DNA of 40,807 nt from Candidatus Peribacteria bacterium (GTDB taxonomy: Bacteria; Patescibacteriota; Gracilibacteria; Peribacterales; Peribacteraceae): the NCBI GenBank assembly GCA_009691305.1, contig SICS01000006.1, forward strand, positions 1 through 40,807, read 5' to 3'. The number at the start of each line of letters is the position of its first letter. Position 1 is the first letter of the stretch. Under the pieces are notes generated by a model. That model did not search any database and was not told where the DNA came from. It saw only the letters and a program-made list of their open reading frames with translations. Below are positions 1 to 32,276 of the stretch, in pieces. A program made the translations under genes and the position numbers.

Positions 1-258
1 AAGGCGCTCGTCGACCTATACTCACGTGGTGGTATCGCGGGCAACGGCAATATTTTCCGGCAGCAGCAGTTCCTGTCCACGGTGCAAAACGTGATGGCAG
101 CGAGAAGCACGATGCCAGGAGTTCTCCCTGTCACCGACGTCGCGACAGCTTCACAGGCGCAATATGCCATCGAACAAAGTCCCTTTGGCGGTACGCCTCC
201 TCCGATCCCCGGTCTCCAAAACCCATTGGGCACCGGCGGCCAGCCTCCAACACAATAA
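1..258 (+). CDS. C-terminal end of an unrecognised protein (5' truncated)
   Basis: Frame 1 is open from the left edge to a TAA at 256-258, giving 85 codons and no start inside the window. The peptide starts with a KALVDLYSRGG-like segment, has a Q-rich stretch (FRQQQFL) near residue 22, and ends in a Pro/Gly-rich tail (GGTPPPIPGLQNPLG, then QPPTQ). The third positions are GC-rich like those of neighbouring genes, and the frame closes exactly where a terminator hairpin begins, which supports real coding. The low-complexity tail suggests an exposed or disordered C-terminus. I do not recognise the family. Confidence 0.6.
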   Translation, partial: KALVDLYSRGGIAGNGNIFRQQQFLSTVQNVMAARSTMPGVLPVTDVATASQAQYAIEQSPFGGTPPPIPGLQNPLGTGGQPPTQ

Positions 259-291
259 AAACCCCGCACGCGTTTCCGCTGAGCAGGGTTT
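259..291 (-). terminator. Rho-independent terminator of rnj
   Basis: Read on the minus strand, AAACCCTGC pairs with GCGGGGTTT around a loop of about 15 nt with one mismatch, followed by a T-run (GGGGTTTTTATTG). The T-run lies on the minus-strand side, so the terminator belongs to rnj. It may also stop transcription from the truncated plus-strand gene, whose stop codon touches it. Confidence 0.6.
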
Positions 292-336
292 CCTCGGTAC
301 GCTTGTCGCTCCGCGCCGAGCTACTCGGAATGACAC
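290..336. repeat. Dispersed palindromic repeat, 'gagctactcgg-rtgac' type
   Basis: The segment has the pattern cctcgg...cgctccgcgccgagctactcggaatgaca. The same pattern occurs at 21444-21486 and, inverted, at 21505-21556. It is related to the tccttcgctccgctcaggatgac copies at 18512 and 23139. It lies between the rnj terminator and the second copy of the rnj tail. Confidence 0.6.
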
Positions 337-351
337 TTTTTCCAGTGCCTC

Positions 352-381
352 TCAGACCTCTACTATAAAGGGGACCACCAT
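352..381 (-). pseudogene. Second, recoded copy of the RNase J C-terminal nonapeptide
   Basis: On the minus strand these 30 nt read M-V-V-P-F-I-V-E-V-stop, exactly the last nine residues and stop of rnj (454-425). All eight codons after ATG differ at the third base from the rnj copy, and none differs at the first or second base. It lies 43 nt beyond the rnj stop, in another frame, with a palindromic repeat between. It is best read as the relic of an older or allelic 3' end of rnj. The reading is direct; the history is inferred. Confidence 0.75.
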
Positions 382-420
382 CCCACTTCGCTCGCCTACG
401 GCGAGCTTCGCGGGACAAGT
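382..420. repeat. Palindromic repeat, 'cccacttcgctc...gcgggacaag' type
   Basis: The segment is tcccacttcgctcgcc, tacg, ggcgagcttcgcgggacaag; the arms ctcgcc and ggcgag form a hairpin. Related copies are at 5840-5877 (same ending, cgcgggacaag), 15361-15391 (inside rnpB) and 31972-32007 (inside the tRNA-editing gene). It separates the two copies of the RNase J tail. Confidence 0.65.
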
Positions 421-424
421 CGGT

Positions 425-2446
425 TCAAACTTCAACGATGAAAGGAACGACCATGGGTTCGCGGTCGAGCTTCCGATCGAAGTACCTGAATAATGCGCCG
501 GTGACCGCGCGCTTGAGTTCTTTGCGGTCTTTGACGCCGCGATTGAGCTCTTCGTCGTACGCCTTGCGGGCGGTCTCGACGATCTCCTTGGTGATCTGCG
601 CCTGTTCGGACCCATAGAGGAGTCCGCGGGAGATCACTTCGGGGTCGGCGACGAGGCGCTTGCTCTCGGCGTAGGCCTTAAAGACCAAGACGATCGCGCC
701 CGAGTTGCTCATGATCTTGCGGTCATCCAGGGTTCGCGCGCCTTCGCCCGCCGATCCGCGTCCGTCGATGATGACGTCCCGGAACGTGAGCTTGCTCTTG
801 CTGCGGCGTGCGTCGCCCTTGGCGTCGAACTCGAGGATCTCGCCGTTGACCATCAGGTGGACCTGGTTGTCCGGGTAGCCGATACCTTTCACGAGGTCCG
901 CGTGCGCAACGCGCATGTGCGGTTCCCCGTGCTCAGGAATAACGTGCTTGGCCCGGACCAGGCGGTGCATCAGGAGCAAGTCCTGTTGGTAGCCGTGTCC
1001 CGTGGTGTGCAGTGCGAGTTCCGCATTCGTCTTCACGATGGCGCCCTGCAGGTGCAGGTTGTTCACCACCTTGGCGACGGCGCGCTCGTTGCCGATGATC
1101 GGGTTACTGCTCAGGACCACCGTGTCGCCCTTGCGGACGATGATGTGCCGGTGCGTACCCAGGCCCATGCGGGCGAGCCCGGCGACCTCTTCGCCTTGGC
1201 TTCCCGTGGTCAAAATCAGCACTTCGCGGTCGGGCAGTTTGTCCATGGCGGGGTTCACCTTTCGGATCATCCCGCGCGGGGCCTTGATGTAGCCCAGGTT
1301 CTGCGCGATCTCGATGTTGTTCTCCATGCTCCGTCCAGAGACGAAGACTTTGCGGTCGAACGCCTTGGCGTGTTCCACCACTTGCGCGATGCGGTTGAGC
1401 AACGAGCTGAAGGTGGAGATGACCACGCGGCCCTTGGCATCACGGATCAGACCGAAGAGTGTCTCGGAAATTTCTTTCTCACTCTTGCTCTGTCCAGGCT
1501 TGGTCGCGTTGGTGGAGTCGGCGATGATCGCCAGCACCCCTTCGTCACCCAACTGTGCCAGGCGCGAGAAGTCGGCGGGTGGCTCGTTCATCGGCGTCAT
1601 GTCGAACTTGAAGTCGCCGGTGTGCACGATTCTCCCGTAGGGAGTGGTGATCGCGATCGCGGCGGAGTCGGGGATCGAGTGAGTGACGCGGAGGAACTCC
1701 ACCTCGATCTTGCCGATGCGGACTTTCTGCCGGAAGTCGACGGTGTTGAGCCGTGCCTTGCTGGTCATGCCTTCCTCATCGAGGCGCTTTTTGACGAATG
1801 CCATCGTGAGTTTTGTGCCGTAGCAGGGCGGAAAATGCAGTTGCGGCAGCAAGTGCTGCACTGCGCCGATGTGGTCCAAATGCCCGTGGGTGAAGAGGAC
1901 CGCTTTGATGCGGCTCTCGCGTCCGCGGAGGCTGGACAGGTCGGGGATCAAATAGTCGATGCCAAGCATGTCCTCGTCCGGGAACTGGAGTCCCAGATCG
2001 ATGACGTAGAGGTCGCCATCGACATCGATGACGAAGCAGTTGCGGCCGACCTGCTCGAATCCGCCCAGCGGATAGAGTCGGAGGCCTTTGCCTGCGTTCG
2101 CCTGAACGATGGGTTCGGGGGCGATATTGGTGCGGTCATACACGCGGTCGGTTATGCCGATGGGCATCTTGTTGGGGGATGCAGCATCAGCCTGGGCCGA
2201 CTGCGGCGATGACGGTAATTGTGCGGGGCGATTGCCGCGCCCGCCTCCGCTAAAGCTTCGGTGGGCAGGCCCGCCTTCGCTAAAGCTTTGGTGGGCAGGC
2301 CCGCGACGGCGTCTCCGGCGACGGCCTTGTCCCGGGGGACGGGGGCCACCGACTGGTGACGTACGAAATGAGGGCCCTCCTGGGCCTTGTGAGGGGGCAG
2401 CTCCGTCCGCCTTGGCGGATGGTCCTCCTCCGGTAACCTCGAACAT
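425..2446 (-). CDS. rnj: Ribonuclease J (metallo-beta-lactamase/beta-CASP RNase)
   Basis: RNase J is a cytoplasmic 5'-3' exo- and endoribonuclease in mRNA turnover and rRNA processing. The product shows the MBL zinc motif FTHGHLDHIGA, then GDFKFD, the beta-CASP segment with STFSSLLNRI and VSGRSMENN, and the late histidine motif PEHGEPHMR, which is enough for an active site. The N-terminal ~110 residues are a low-complexity Gly/Pro/Arg/Ser extension with an Arg run, likely disordered and RNA-binding. Part of it is a 30-bp tandem repeat (2249-2304). I chose ATG 2446 because a TATTTT box lies 16 nt upstream; ATG 2485 and a TTG at 2512 are also in frame, so the start is uncertain. The gene ends MVVPFIVEV, a peptide repeated at 352-381. 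Confidence 0.95.
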   Translation of the reverse strand: MFEVTGGGPSAKADGAAPSQGPGGPSFRTSPVGGPRPPGQGRRRRRRRGPAHQSFSEGGPAHRSFSGGGRGNRPAQLPSSPQSAQADAASPNKMPIGITDRVYDRTNIAPEPIVQANAGKGLRLYPLGGFEQVGRNCFVIDVDGDLYVIDLGLQFPDEDMLGIDYLIPDLSSLRGRESRIKAVLFTHGHLDHIGAVQHLLPQLHFPPCYGTKLTMAFVKKRLDEEGMTSKARLNTVDFRQKVRIGKIEVEFLRVTHSIPDSAAIAITTPYGRIVHTGDFKFDMTPMNEPPADFSRLAQLGDEGVLAIIADSTNATKPGQSKSEKEISETLFGLIRDAKGRVVISTFSSLLNRIAQVVEHAKAFDRKVFVSGRSMENNIEIAQNLGYIKAPRGMIRKVNPAMDKLPDREVLILTTGSQGEEVAGLARMGLGTHRHIIVRKGDTVVLSSNPIIGNERAVAKVVNNLHLQGAIVKTNAELALHTTGHGYQQDLLLMHRLVRAKHVIPEHGEPHMRVAHADLVKGIGYPDNQVHLMVNGEILEFDAKGDARRSKSKLTFRDVIIDGRGSAGEGARTLDDRKIMSNSGAIVLVFKAYAESKRLVADPEVISRGLLYGSEQAQITKEIVETARKAYDEELNRGVKDRKELKRAVTGALFRYFDRKLDREPMVVPFIVEV
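2249..2304. repeat. Two-copy tandem repeat in the rnj N-terminal region
   Basis: The unit gctaaagcttYggtgggcag plus gcccgc occurs at 2249-2274 and 2279-2304, with period 30 bp and one C/T difference. Because 30 is a multiple of three, rnj stays in frame and gains repeated GGPAH-S-F blocks. A cgccttggcg palindrome lies nearby at about 2408-2417. Confidence 0.8.
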
Positions 2447-2589
2447 GTCTGTTGAGTTGGAAAAAATAGAACGAACTGCACACATGGTACGCCACCCGAT
2501 CCCGAAAAGCAAGAGGCGCGATGTCGAGTACCTTAGTTTTTGGCTTCTGGTTCACGAATTTTTAGTTGGGAAAATTGAAATCGTGTATC

Positions 2590-2690
2590 CCTAGCGCGGC
2601 CTTTCTGGCCGCATTCGCATAGGGCGCCTGACCGTGATTGCTGCGGCGAGAAACGCCGCGCTGGAACACCGAATAACGCCGCGCTGGCAT
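2590..2690. repeat. GCGGCC-type palindromes between rnj and the PP2C-like gene
   Basis: The segment gcgcggcctttctggccgc (about 2595-2613) matches the gcggcc-N-ggccgc family also found at 10936, 17387, 22711 and 30481. It is followed by two copies of aacgccgcgctgg, at about 2652-2664 and 2673-2685. The 2447-2763 intergenic region holds these repeats and the two divergent promoters; I see no gene in it. Confidence 0.5.
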
Positions 2691-31742: not shown

Positions 31743-32276
31743 ATGGATATCTACGCCTTCCTCGACTCGCACGGCATCAGTTACCAGCGCTTCGACCACG
31801 AAGCAGTGTTTACGTGCGAGCAGGCGAAGGAAATCCGGACCGAGCCAATGCCCGGCAAGGATACAAAGAACCTCTTTCTCCGCGACGAAAAAGGGAAGAG
31901 ACACTTCCTGGTGACTGTCGGGCACGAGAAGCAGGTCGATATCAAGGCGCTCAAGAAAATTTTTGACGTTCACCCCCCTTCGTCCGCTGCGGCGGACTAC
32001 GGAGGGGTAAAGAAACTCTCCTTCGCATCACCGGAGCGTCTCAAAACGTATCTTGGCGTTGATCCGGGATCCGTCACTCTTCTCGGTTTAGTGAATGATA
32101 CTGACCACGCGGTCGAAGTCTTCATCGACGAGGCGATATGGAAAGCAGACGCCGTCTGCTGCCATCCGCTTGTCAATACTGCGACACTGGTGATTGCCCA
32201 TGCTGGACTGGTGAAATTCCTTCAGGCAACAGGGCACGCAGCAACCGTCATCAACGTGCAGACTATCCAAATATGA
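31743..32276 (+). CDS. YbaK/ProX-type aminoacyl-tRNA editing protein
   Basis: It is a free-standing trans-editing domain that deacylates misacylated tRNA, in this subfamily typically Ala-tRNA(Pro). The 177-aa protein shows ISYQRFDHEAVFTCEQA, GKDTKNLFLRDEKGKRHFLVTVGHEKQVD (the K-N-L-F-L-RD core and a catalytic-type Lys) and LGLVNDTDHAVEVFID, with CHPLVNTATLVI near the end. A palindromic repeat (31972-32007) is inserted as HPPSSAAADYGGV. It lies 17 nt after sufC, probably on one transcript. Its 3' end overlaps the convergent permease by 14 bp. Confidence 0.85.
   Translation: MDIYAFLDSHGISYQRFDHEAVFTCEQAKEIRTEPMPGKDTKNLFLRDEKGKRHFLVTVGHEKQVDIKALKKIFDVHPPSSAAADYGGVKKLSFASPERLKTYLGVDPGSVTLLGLVNDTDHAVEVFIDEAIWKADAVCCHPLVNTATLVIAHAGLVKFLQATGHAATVINVQTIQI
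31972..32007. repeat. Palindromic repeat inside the tRNA-editing gene
   Basis: ccccccttcgtccgc, tgcg, gcggactacggagggg: gtccgc/gcggac stem. Same family as 382-420 and 15361-15391. It keeps the frame. Confidence 0.7.

Follow-up and report, generated by a model that had tools for sequence, protein, structure and literature searches.

The rnj gene, encoding RNase J, in a Candidatus Peribacteria genome is followed by a second copy of its own C-terminal tail that is synonymously recoded throughout, with a hairpin between the two copies. The original prediction treated this pair as a single curiosity at rnj, but the same architecture proved to be family-wide and to involve many genes, sometimes together with cargo genes. 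On balance, we favor the explanation that units ending in a hairpin insert close to the 3' ends of genes and bring a synonymous tail of their own, in a manner resembling integrons or integrative elements. The pattern points to an undescribed way of adding DNA beside essential genes without breaking them.

Duplicated tail at the rnj locus

The window, meaning the whole 40,807-nucleotide stretch analyzed, starts at the first base of a contig of a draft genome, and the duplicated site lies less than 500 bases from the contig end. The features at the locus are as follows.

425-2512, minus strand: rnj, RNase J (TIGR00649; Pfam RNase_J_C matched end to end)
425-454, minus strand: tail 1, ATG GTC GTT CCT TTC ATC GTT GAA GTT TGA, MVVPFIVEV-stop
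382-424, minus strand: spacer and hairpin of the putative inserted unit, 43 nt, ACCGACTTGTCCCGCGAAGCTCGCCGTAGGCGAGCGAAGTGGG
about 378-418, minus strand: hairpin TTGTCCCGC-GAA-GCTCGCC-GTA-GGCGAGC-GAA-GTGGGATGG, from sequence and DNA fold
352-381, minus strand: tail 2, ATG GTG GTC CCC TTT ATA GTA GAG GTC TGA, MVVPFIVEV-stop
352-615, minus strand: 87-codon open frame through the hairpin into tail 2

Residues ~131 to 695 of RNase J could be aligned with relatives, whereas the N-terminal extension was poorly conserved, and 2512 is a putative start. The Pfam RNase_J_C domain reaches its final residue in tail 1, which is the functional C-terminus of rnj. We read tail 1 as the end delivered by an inserted unit and tail 2 as the older rnj end, displaced and in another frame. 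Rereading of the sequence and its translation confirmed the predicted MVVPFIVEV-stop copies at 454-425 and 381-352: all eight codons after ATG differ, each at the third base only, and every difference is silent. The copies are 43 nt apart (424-382) with the palindrome between them, and the 73-nt offset places them in different frames. Chance had been dismissed as an explanation, and this held, with the pair scoring 43 compared to a best score of 28 (one outlier of 49 aside) in a shuffled-tail control on 1.2 Mb of the relative G071.

The hairpin consists of stem 1, a GAA/GAA internal loop, stem 2 and a loop, with a DNA fold z of -2.9. Its left end is TGTC, and its right arm abuts tail 2, overlapping it by 4 nt if wobble pairs are counted. 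The core occurs once in the genome at up to three mismatches, and an exact palindrome acting as a dispersed repeat was therefore rejected; the hairpin belongs to a recognizable type seen at other loci rather than to an identical high-copy repeat. An Rfam search of window positions 1-2600 gave no convincing match.

Several other hairpins were seen in the window. A second type (GTCATTCCGAGTAGCTCGG...CGAGGAA) lies downstream of tail 2 at ~290-334 and also precedes the duplicated tail of a GtrA-type gene on contig C27 of the same genome, and a terminator-like hairpin, likewise downstream of tail 2, occupies 256-290. The N-terminal extension of rnj contains, at 2238-2300, two palindromes in tandem and in frame that share the general type of the rnj hairpin (GCCCACCGAAGCTTTAGCGGAGGCGGGC on the coding strand, encoding GGPAHQSFSEGGPAHRSFSGGG). 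A further hairpin of the CCCTCCGTAG...GACGAAGGGGGG type was found at 31973-32006, with no duplicated gene tail recognized beside it.

Second rnj tails in the family

Comparison of rnj 3' ends and flanks in relatives, a check put forward with the original prediction, revealed a second tail downstream of rnj in at least 14 of the 72 family genomes with the gene. Thirteen of these tails were recognizable, with a score of 25 or more (G000, which is the window's own genome, G003, G006, G043, G046, G054, G055, G071, G074, G077, G080, G087 and G089, with G054 having it twice), and one was strongly decayed (G076). None of the 24 Gracilibacteria rnj loci examined had a second tail, and the rnj tail motif was not found outside the rnj locus in any of 74 genomes. 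The second rnj tail was abutted at the same codon by a hairpin whose right arm is G-rich (mostly GCGAAGGNGGR), with G087 as the exception. In the first ten genomes tabulated, the rnj tail differences at the three codon positions were 12/0/49.

Individual loci showed how these arrangements vary. The two further tail copies in G054 had the same DNA sequence starting with the second base of their first codon and appear to stem from a recent tandem event. G003 contained ~1 kb with an AbiEii-type gene between its functional end and its residual tail, and G087 contained ~1.25 kb with two ORFs in the corresponding place. The residual part in G003 has the same hairpin as the window, so the arrangement probably predates the split between G000 and G003. 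As a separate observation, the rnj stop overlaps the start of a HAD-type hydrolase gene (ATGA) in G074 (locus L109), G072 (locus L095), G056, G057 and G078; in G074, this overlap is kept by tail 2 and not by tail 1.

Duplicated tails in other genes

We compared the last nine amino acids of every ORF of at least 60 amino acids with downstream stops, covering 746 of 1,068 kb of the window's own genome and 1,200 of 1,248 kb of G071. Recoded gene ends at other loci, which the original prediction proposed looking for beside other repeats, were indeed present in the window's genome. A B12-dependent ribonucleotide reductase (RNR) gene had a second tail with 7/7 codons recoded, including a serine changed from TCT to AGT, and a GtrA-type protein had a duplicated tail with 13 identical residues. 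An ABC-F ATPase and a 65-amino-acid candidate ORF also had second tails. In G071, the scan returned, besides rnj, genes for a redoxin, a XerC/D-like recombinase (xer), a PBP, a PilT/GspE ATPase and a TrmA-type methyltransferase, all named from their sequences. The tail was recoded or duplicated in each, with a hairpin directly before it in nearly all. Family-wide and sister-species comparisons covered fewer than a dozen genes, in genomes that are nearly all draft or metagenome-derived; they added xer in G072, G073, G074, G082, G086 and G023, redoxin in G072 and RNR in G074.

The units differed widely in content. Inserts ranged from ~30 nt to ~8 kb, some with toxin-antitoxin, NYN or AbiEii genes, and residual tails ranged from 6 to 52 codons, varying between genes and even at one gene. 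The residual TrmA tail of 52 amino acids in G006 lies 8.35 kb downstream. Three tails each, forming nested units, were found at G071 redoxin, G071 xer and G072 xer, and a RelB/YafQ pair lies between two tail copies at G072 xer, each copy preceded by a paralogous hairpin module. No ectopic tail copies were found in G071, neither free nor circular units were seen, and the viral contigs contained no units. At ~167491-167527 in G071 (locus L140), a hairpin lies beside the 5' end of a tRNA-like sequence, and the first 9 nt of this sequence recur on the far side of the hairpin, as though a tRNA had been the target of the same insertion.

Native tail in sister species with empty sites

The TrmA gene of the sister species G075 has a single tail, GTGAGTCTGTTGCAGAGGAAGTAA, followed by the flank gtttccacctttgtcgcgac, and tail 2 of G071 together with its flank is nearly the same. 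The gene bodies of G071 and G075 share 90-93% identity in windows before the last 60 nt, after which identity falls to 70%. All of the last ten codons differ between tail 1 of G071 and the G075 tail, and tail 1 resembles that of G019. Judged by these identities, the G071 gene body is native, and only its last ~10 codons (~45 nt at most) are foreign. At rnj in genus g53, the flank after tail 2 of G071 likewise matched the flank after the sole tail of G073 and G075, with identities of 87.5% and 88.8%, respectively, over ~170 nt. Because the empty sites of sister species match tail 2 and its flank, the unit would comprise tail 1, the stop, the spacer or cargo and the hairpin, placed before the native tail. 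The earlier suggestion that the downstream copy is ancestral is thus supported at g53 rnj and at TrmA, whereas no empty-site flank was matched for the window's own rnj locus. The xer gene of G071 showed 94% identity to G075 over the whole gene compared to 73% to G073 or G072, and may have been replaced as a whole.

Silent differences between tails

In 19 tail pairs from several genes, 23, 8 and 104 differences fell at the first, second and third codon positions, respectively. Of the differing codons, 92 were silent and 19 changed the amino acid, against an expected 37-60 changing codons had half of the changes landed randomly on tail 2. For the window's rnj pair, the probability that all differences are silent is ~0.001 if half of the eight fell randomly on one copy. 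Serine codons switched between TCN and AGY in the RNR and TrmA tails. The silent excess over the 19 pairs indicates that both copies functioned as gene ends during most of their divergence. It speaks against plain duplication and decay at most loci, and fits tails that came from different lineages or alternated in use. Because the genome-wide scan selects for similar amino acids, the excess of silent changes is inflated at genes other than rnj; the rnj pairs, which were additionally checked by position, are less affected.

Hairpins and junctions

Hairpins of this type numbered a handful per 400 kb, compared to 0-2 in shuffled DNA, and 81 of 84 stem-1 positions were paired, compared to 68 with shuffled arms. 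The left ends were TTGTCC, CTCGTCC or CTGTCC at many units and CTCGCC or TGCCC at others, and the right ends ran directly into the tail, as in GGNGGR-TGG and GGGA-ATGC. DNA identity at the junctions was short and variable, at 2-10 nt and in most cases only 2-6 nt, which is below what tyrosine integrases normally require; it reached ~30 nt in G087 and G054. Some cargo-bearing units (G086, G073 xer and G087 rnj) had no clear hairpin.

Comparison with known systems

Bacteriophage 21 and the element e14 insert at the 3' end of icd and rebuild the gene. PAISt is reported as an integrative element at the 3' end of bacA (PMC4057263). The Peribacteria units similarly supply a replacement gene end and leave the old end at the other junction. 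As with integrative elements at gene 3' ends, the gene stays functional through the end that the element provides, its former end lies at the far junction, and the cargo includes toxin-antitoxin genes. However, the Peribacteria units can be as small as ~30-100 nt without genes, are hairpin-ended, and hit many core genes per genome. Their junctions of mostly 2-10 nt also contrast with the long identical core of those elements, and no integrase was seen.

The units also resemble the gene cassettes of integrons with their attI and attC sites (for example PMC2727003), with structured hairpins at the 3' end that contain an internal loop, a junction directly at the hairpin arm, variable loop length, arrays of successive units and toxin-antitoxin cargo. 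In contrast to integrons, the Peribacteria genomes had no IntI above the cut-off and no GTTRRRY core was seen. Furthermore, the counterpart of attI would here be the 3' end of a core gene, and the cassette begins with a coding copy of the tail. No GTT cleavage core common to the hairpin right ends, as in attC sites with R''/R' boxes, was apparent by inspection. Since neither IntI nor a GTT core was found, the integron-cassette geometry is a likeness and not membership.

A third comparison is with the CGTC-tagged palindromic repeats, which include the Rickettsia palindromic elements according to excerpts of PMC3733652. As portrayed there (PMC3733652), these repeats share with the Peribacteria hairpins the short stem-loop, the CGTC or TGTC left end (at many but not all units), the lack of a known dedicated transposase, and a location downstream of genes and in frame within ORFs. 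Unlike them, the Peribacteria hairpin forms the right border of a unit that starts with a recoded gene tail, and its stem contains a GAA/GAA or GTA/GAA internal loop. A literature search, in which subscription papers were thinly covered, found no title or abstract on recoded gene-end units in Peribacteria or on integrons in Patescibacteria.

Alternative explanations

The main and serious rival is homologous import of divergent gene ends, in which DNA of related species taken up by competence would recombine by homology within the gene and introduce the end of the donor gene along with the DNA downstream of it and a hairpin; its right end would be joined illegitimately in the last codons, and the resident tail would remain. 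The tails do resemble those of other lineages: in addition to the likeness of G071 TrmA tail 1 to G019, tail 3 at G071 xer has almost the same DNA sequence as the G073 tail. The entire G071 xer gene is xenologous with respect to most sisters, units occur only at the home gene, and the residual tail lengths vary. Illegitimate joining should scatter the junctions, however, and the right junction at rnj falls at the same codon in about a dozen genomes, directly at the hairpin arm; the foreign TrmA tract of at most ~45 nt on the gene side is also unfavorable to import. We regard this explanation as possible but rather unlikely. Among the options offered by the original prediction, an element carrying a recoded tail is the best supported, with homologous import standing as its serious competitor.

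Transposition of a REP/RPE-like palindrome that duplicates an 18-40 nt target, leaving tails that are identical at first and diverge later, would agree with the TGTC or CGTC left ends of many hairpins, as in excerpts on the CGTC superfamily (PMC3733652), with the identical tandem tails of G054 and with the 20 identical nt shared by the G071 PilT copies. A drifting copy should gain amino acid changes, yet only 8 of 135 differences fell at second codon positions, and the TrmA tails of sister species match tail 2, not tail 1. Such transposition would account for the hairpin and for G054 but leaves the silent differences unexplained, and is improbable. Tail 2 might instead serve as a functional spare C-terminus that ribosomes reach through frameshifting, hopping or re-initiation. 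Its amino acids are kept, and G071 and G074 share an rnj unit in which tail 2 is still coding in both genomes. However, the frame of tail 2 relative to rnj is 0, 1 or 2 among genomes, the second tails of other genes have no start codon, and several copies are decayed (G046, G076 and G003), which makes this role very improbable. Use of tail 2 by frameshifting or as a mini-ORF, including the 87-codon frame at 352-615 as a frameshift product, was rejected because the frames vary among genomes. The original prediction also considered an assembly chimera of two rnj alleles, to which the draft contig and the proximity of its end lend some plausibility. It was refuted because at least 13 other genomes, each assembled independently, show the architecture at rnj and several genes of this genome show it as well; its probability is negligible. 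Duplicated recoded gene ends in such genomes should be taken as real and not as assembly errors.

Insertion model and candidate recombinase

Under the favored explanation of hairpin-ended units carrying their own tail, a unit consisting of a recoded rnj tail, a stop, a spacer and a hairpin would have inserted 30 nt before the original rnj stop. RNase J would stay intact because the unit supplies a working version of the last nine codons. The original tail would be left after the hairpin, where it drifts or is reused after excision or recombination. Across Candidatus Peribacteria, many core genes would have such units at their 3' ends, in some cases two or three successive ones, and the units would range from hairpin-only forms of ~30-100 nt to cassettes with toxin-antitoxin or other genes. 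We infer that the units move between lineages and that a recombinase acts on them in trans. By analogy with attC in integrons, the junction between the hairpin and the start of the tail may be a recombination site recognized partly via the hairpin. Tentatively, the units could belong to a recombination system distinct from the known integrons: core genes would receive cassettes at their last codons, hairpins would mark the cassette end, arrays would grow and C-termini would be swapped synonymously.

If this is true, a large group of uncultured bacteria keeps mobile cargo, toxin-antitoxin pairs among it, at the ends of essential genes while leaving these genes undamaged, and does so in units much smaller than the integrative elements known so far. 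Successive insertions would have left a readable fossil record in the recoded tails, and the filled and empty sites of sister species make the mechanism testable through strain comparison.

The integron integrase model (TIGR02249) gave no match above its curated cut-off in any of 74 genomes, and no integrase was found in the cargo genes looked at. A housekeeping XerC/D-like gene is present in most of the 74 genomes and is not linked to the units. A tyrosine recombinase that matches the integron-integrase model in two separate blocks with ~115-135 bits, below the cut-off, was seen in G084, G046, G051, G014, G056 and about nine others, and is a candidate for acting on the units.
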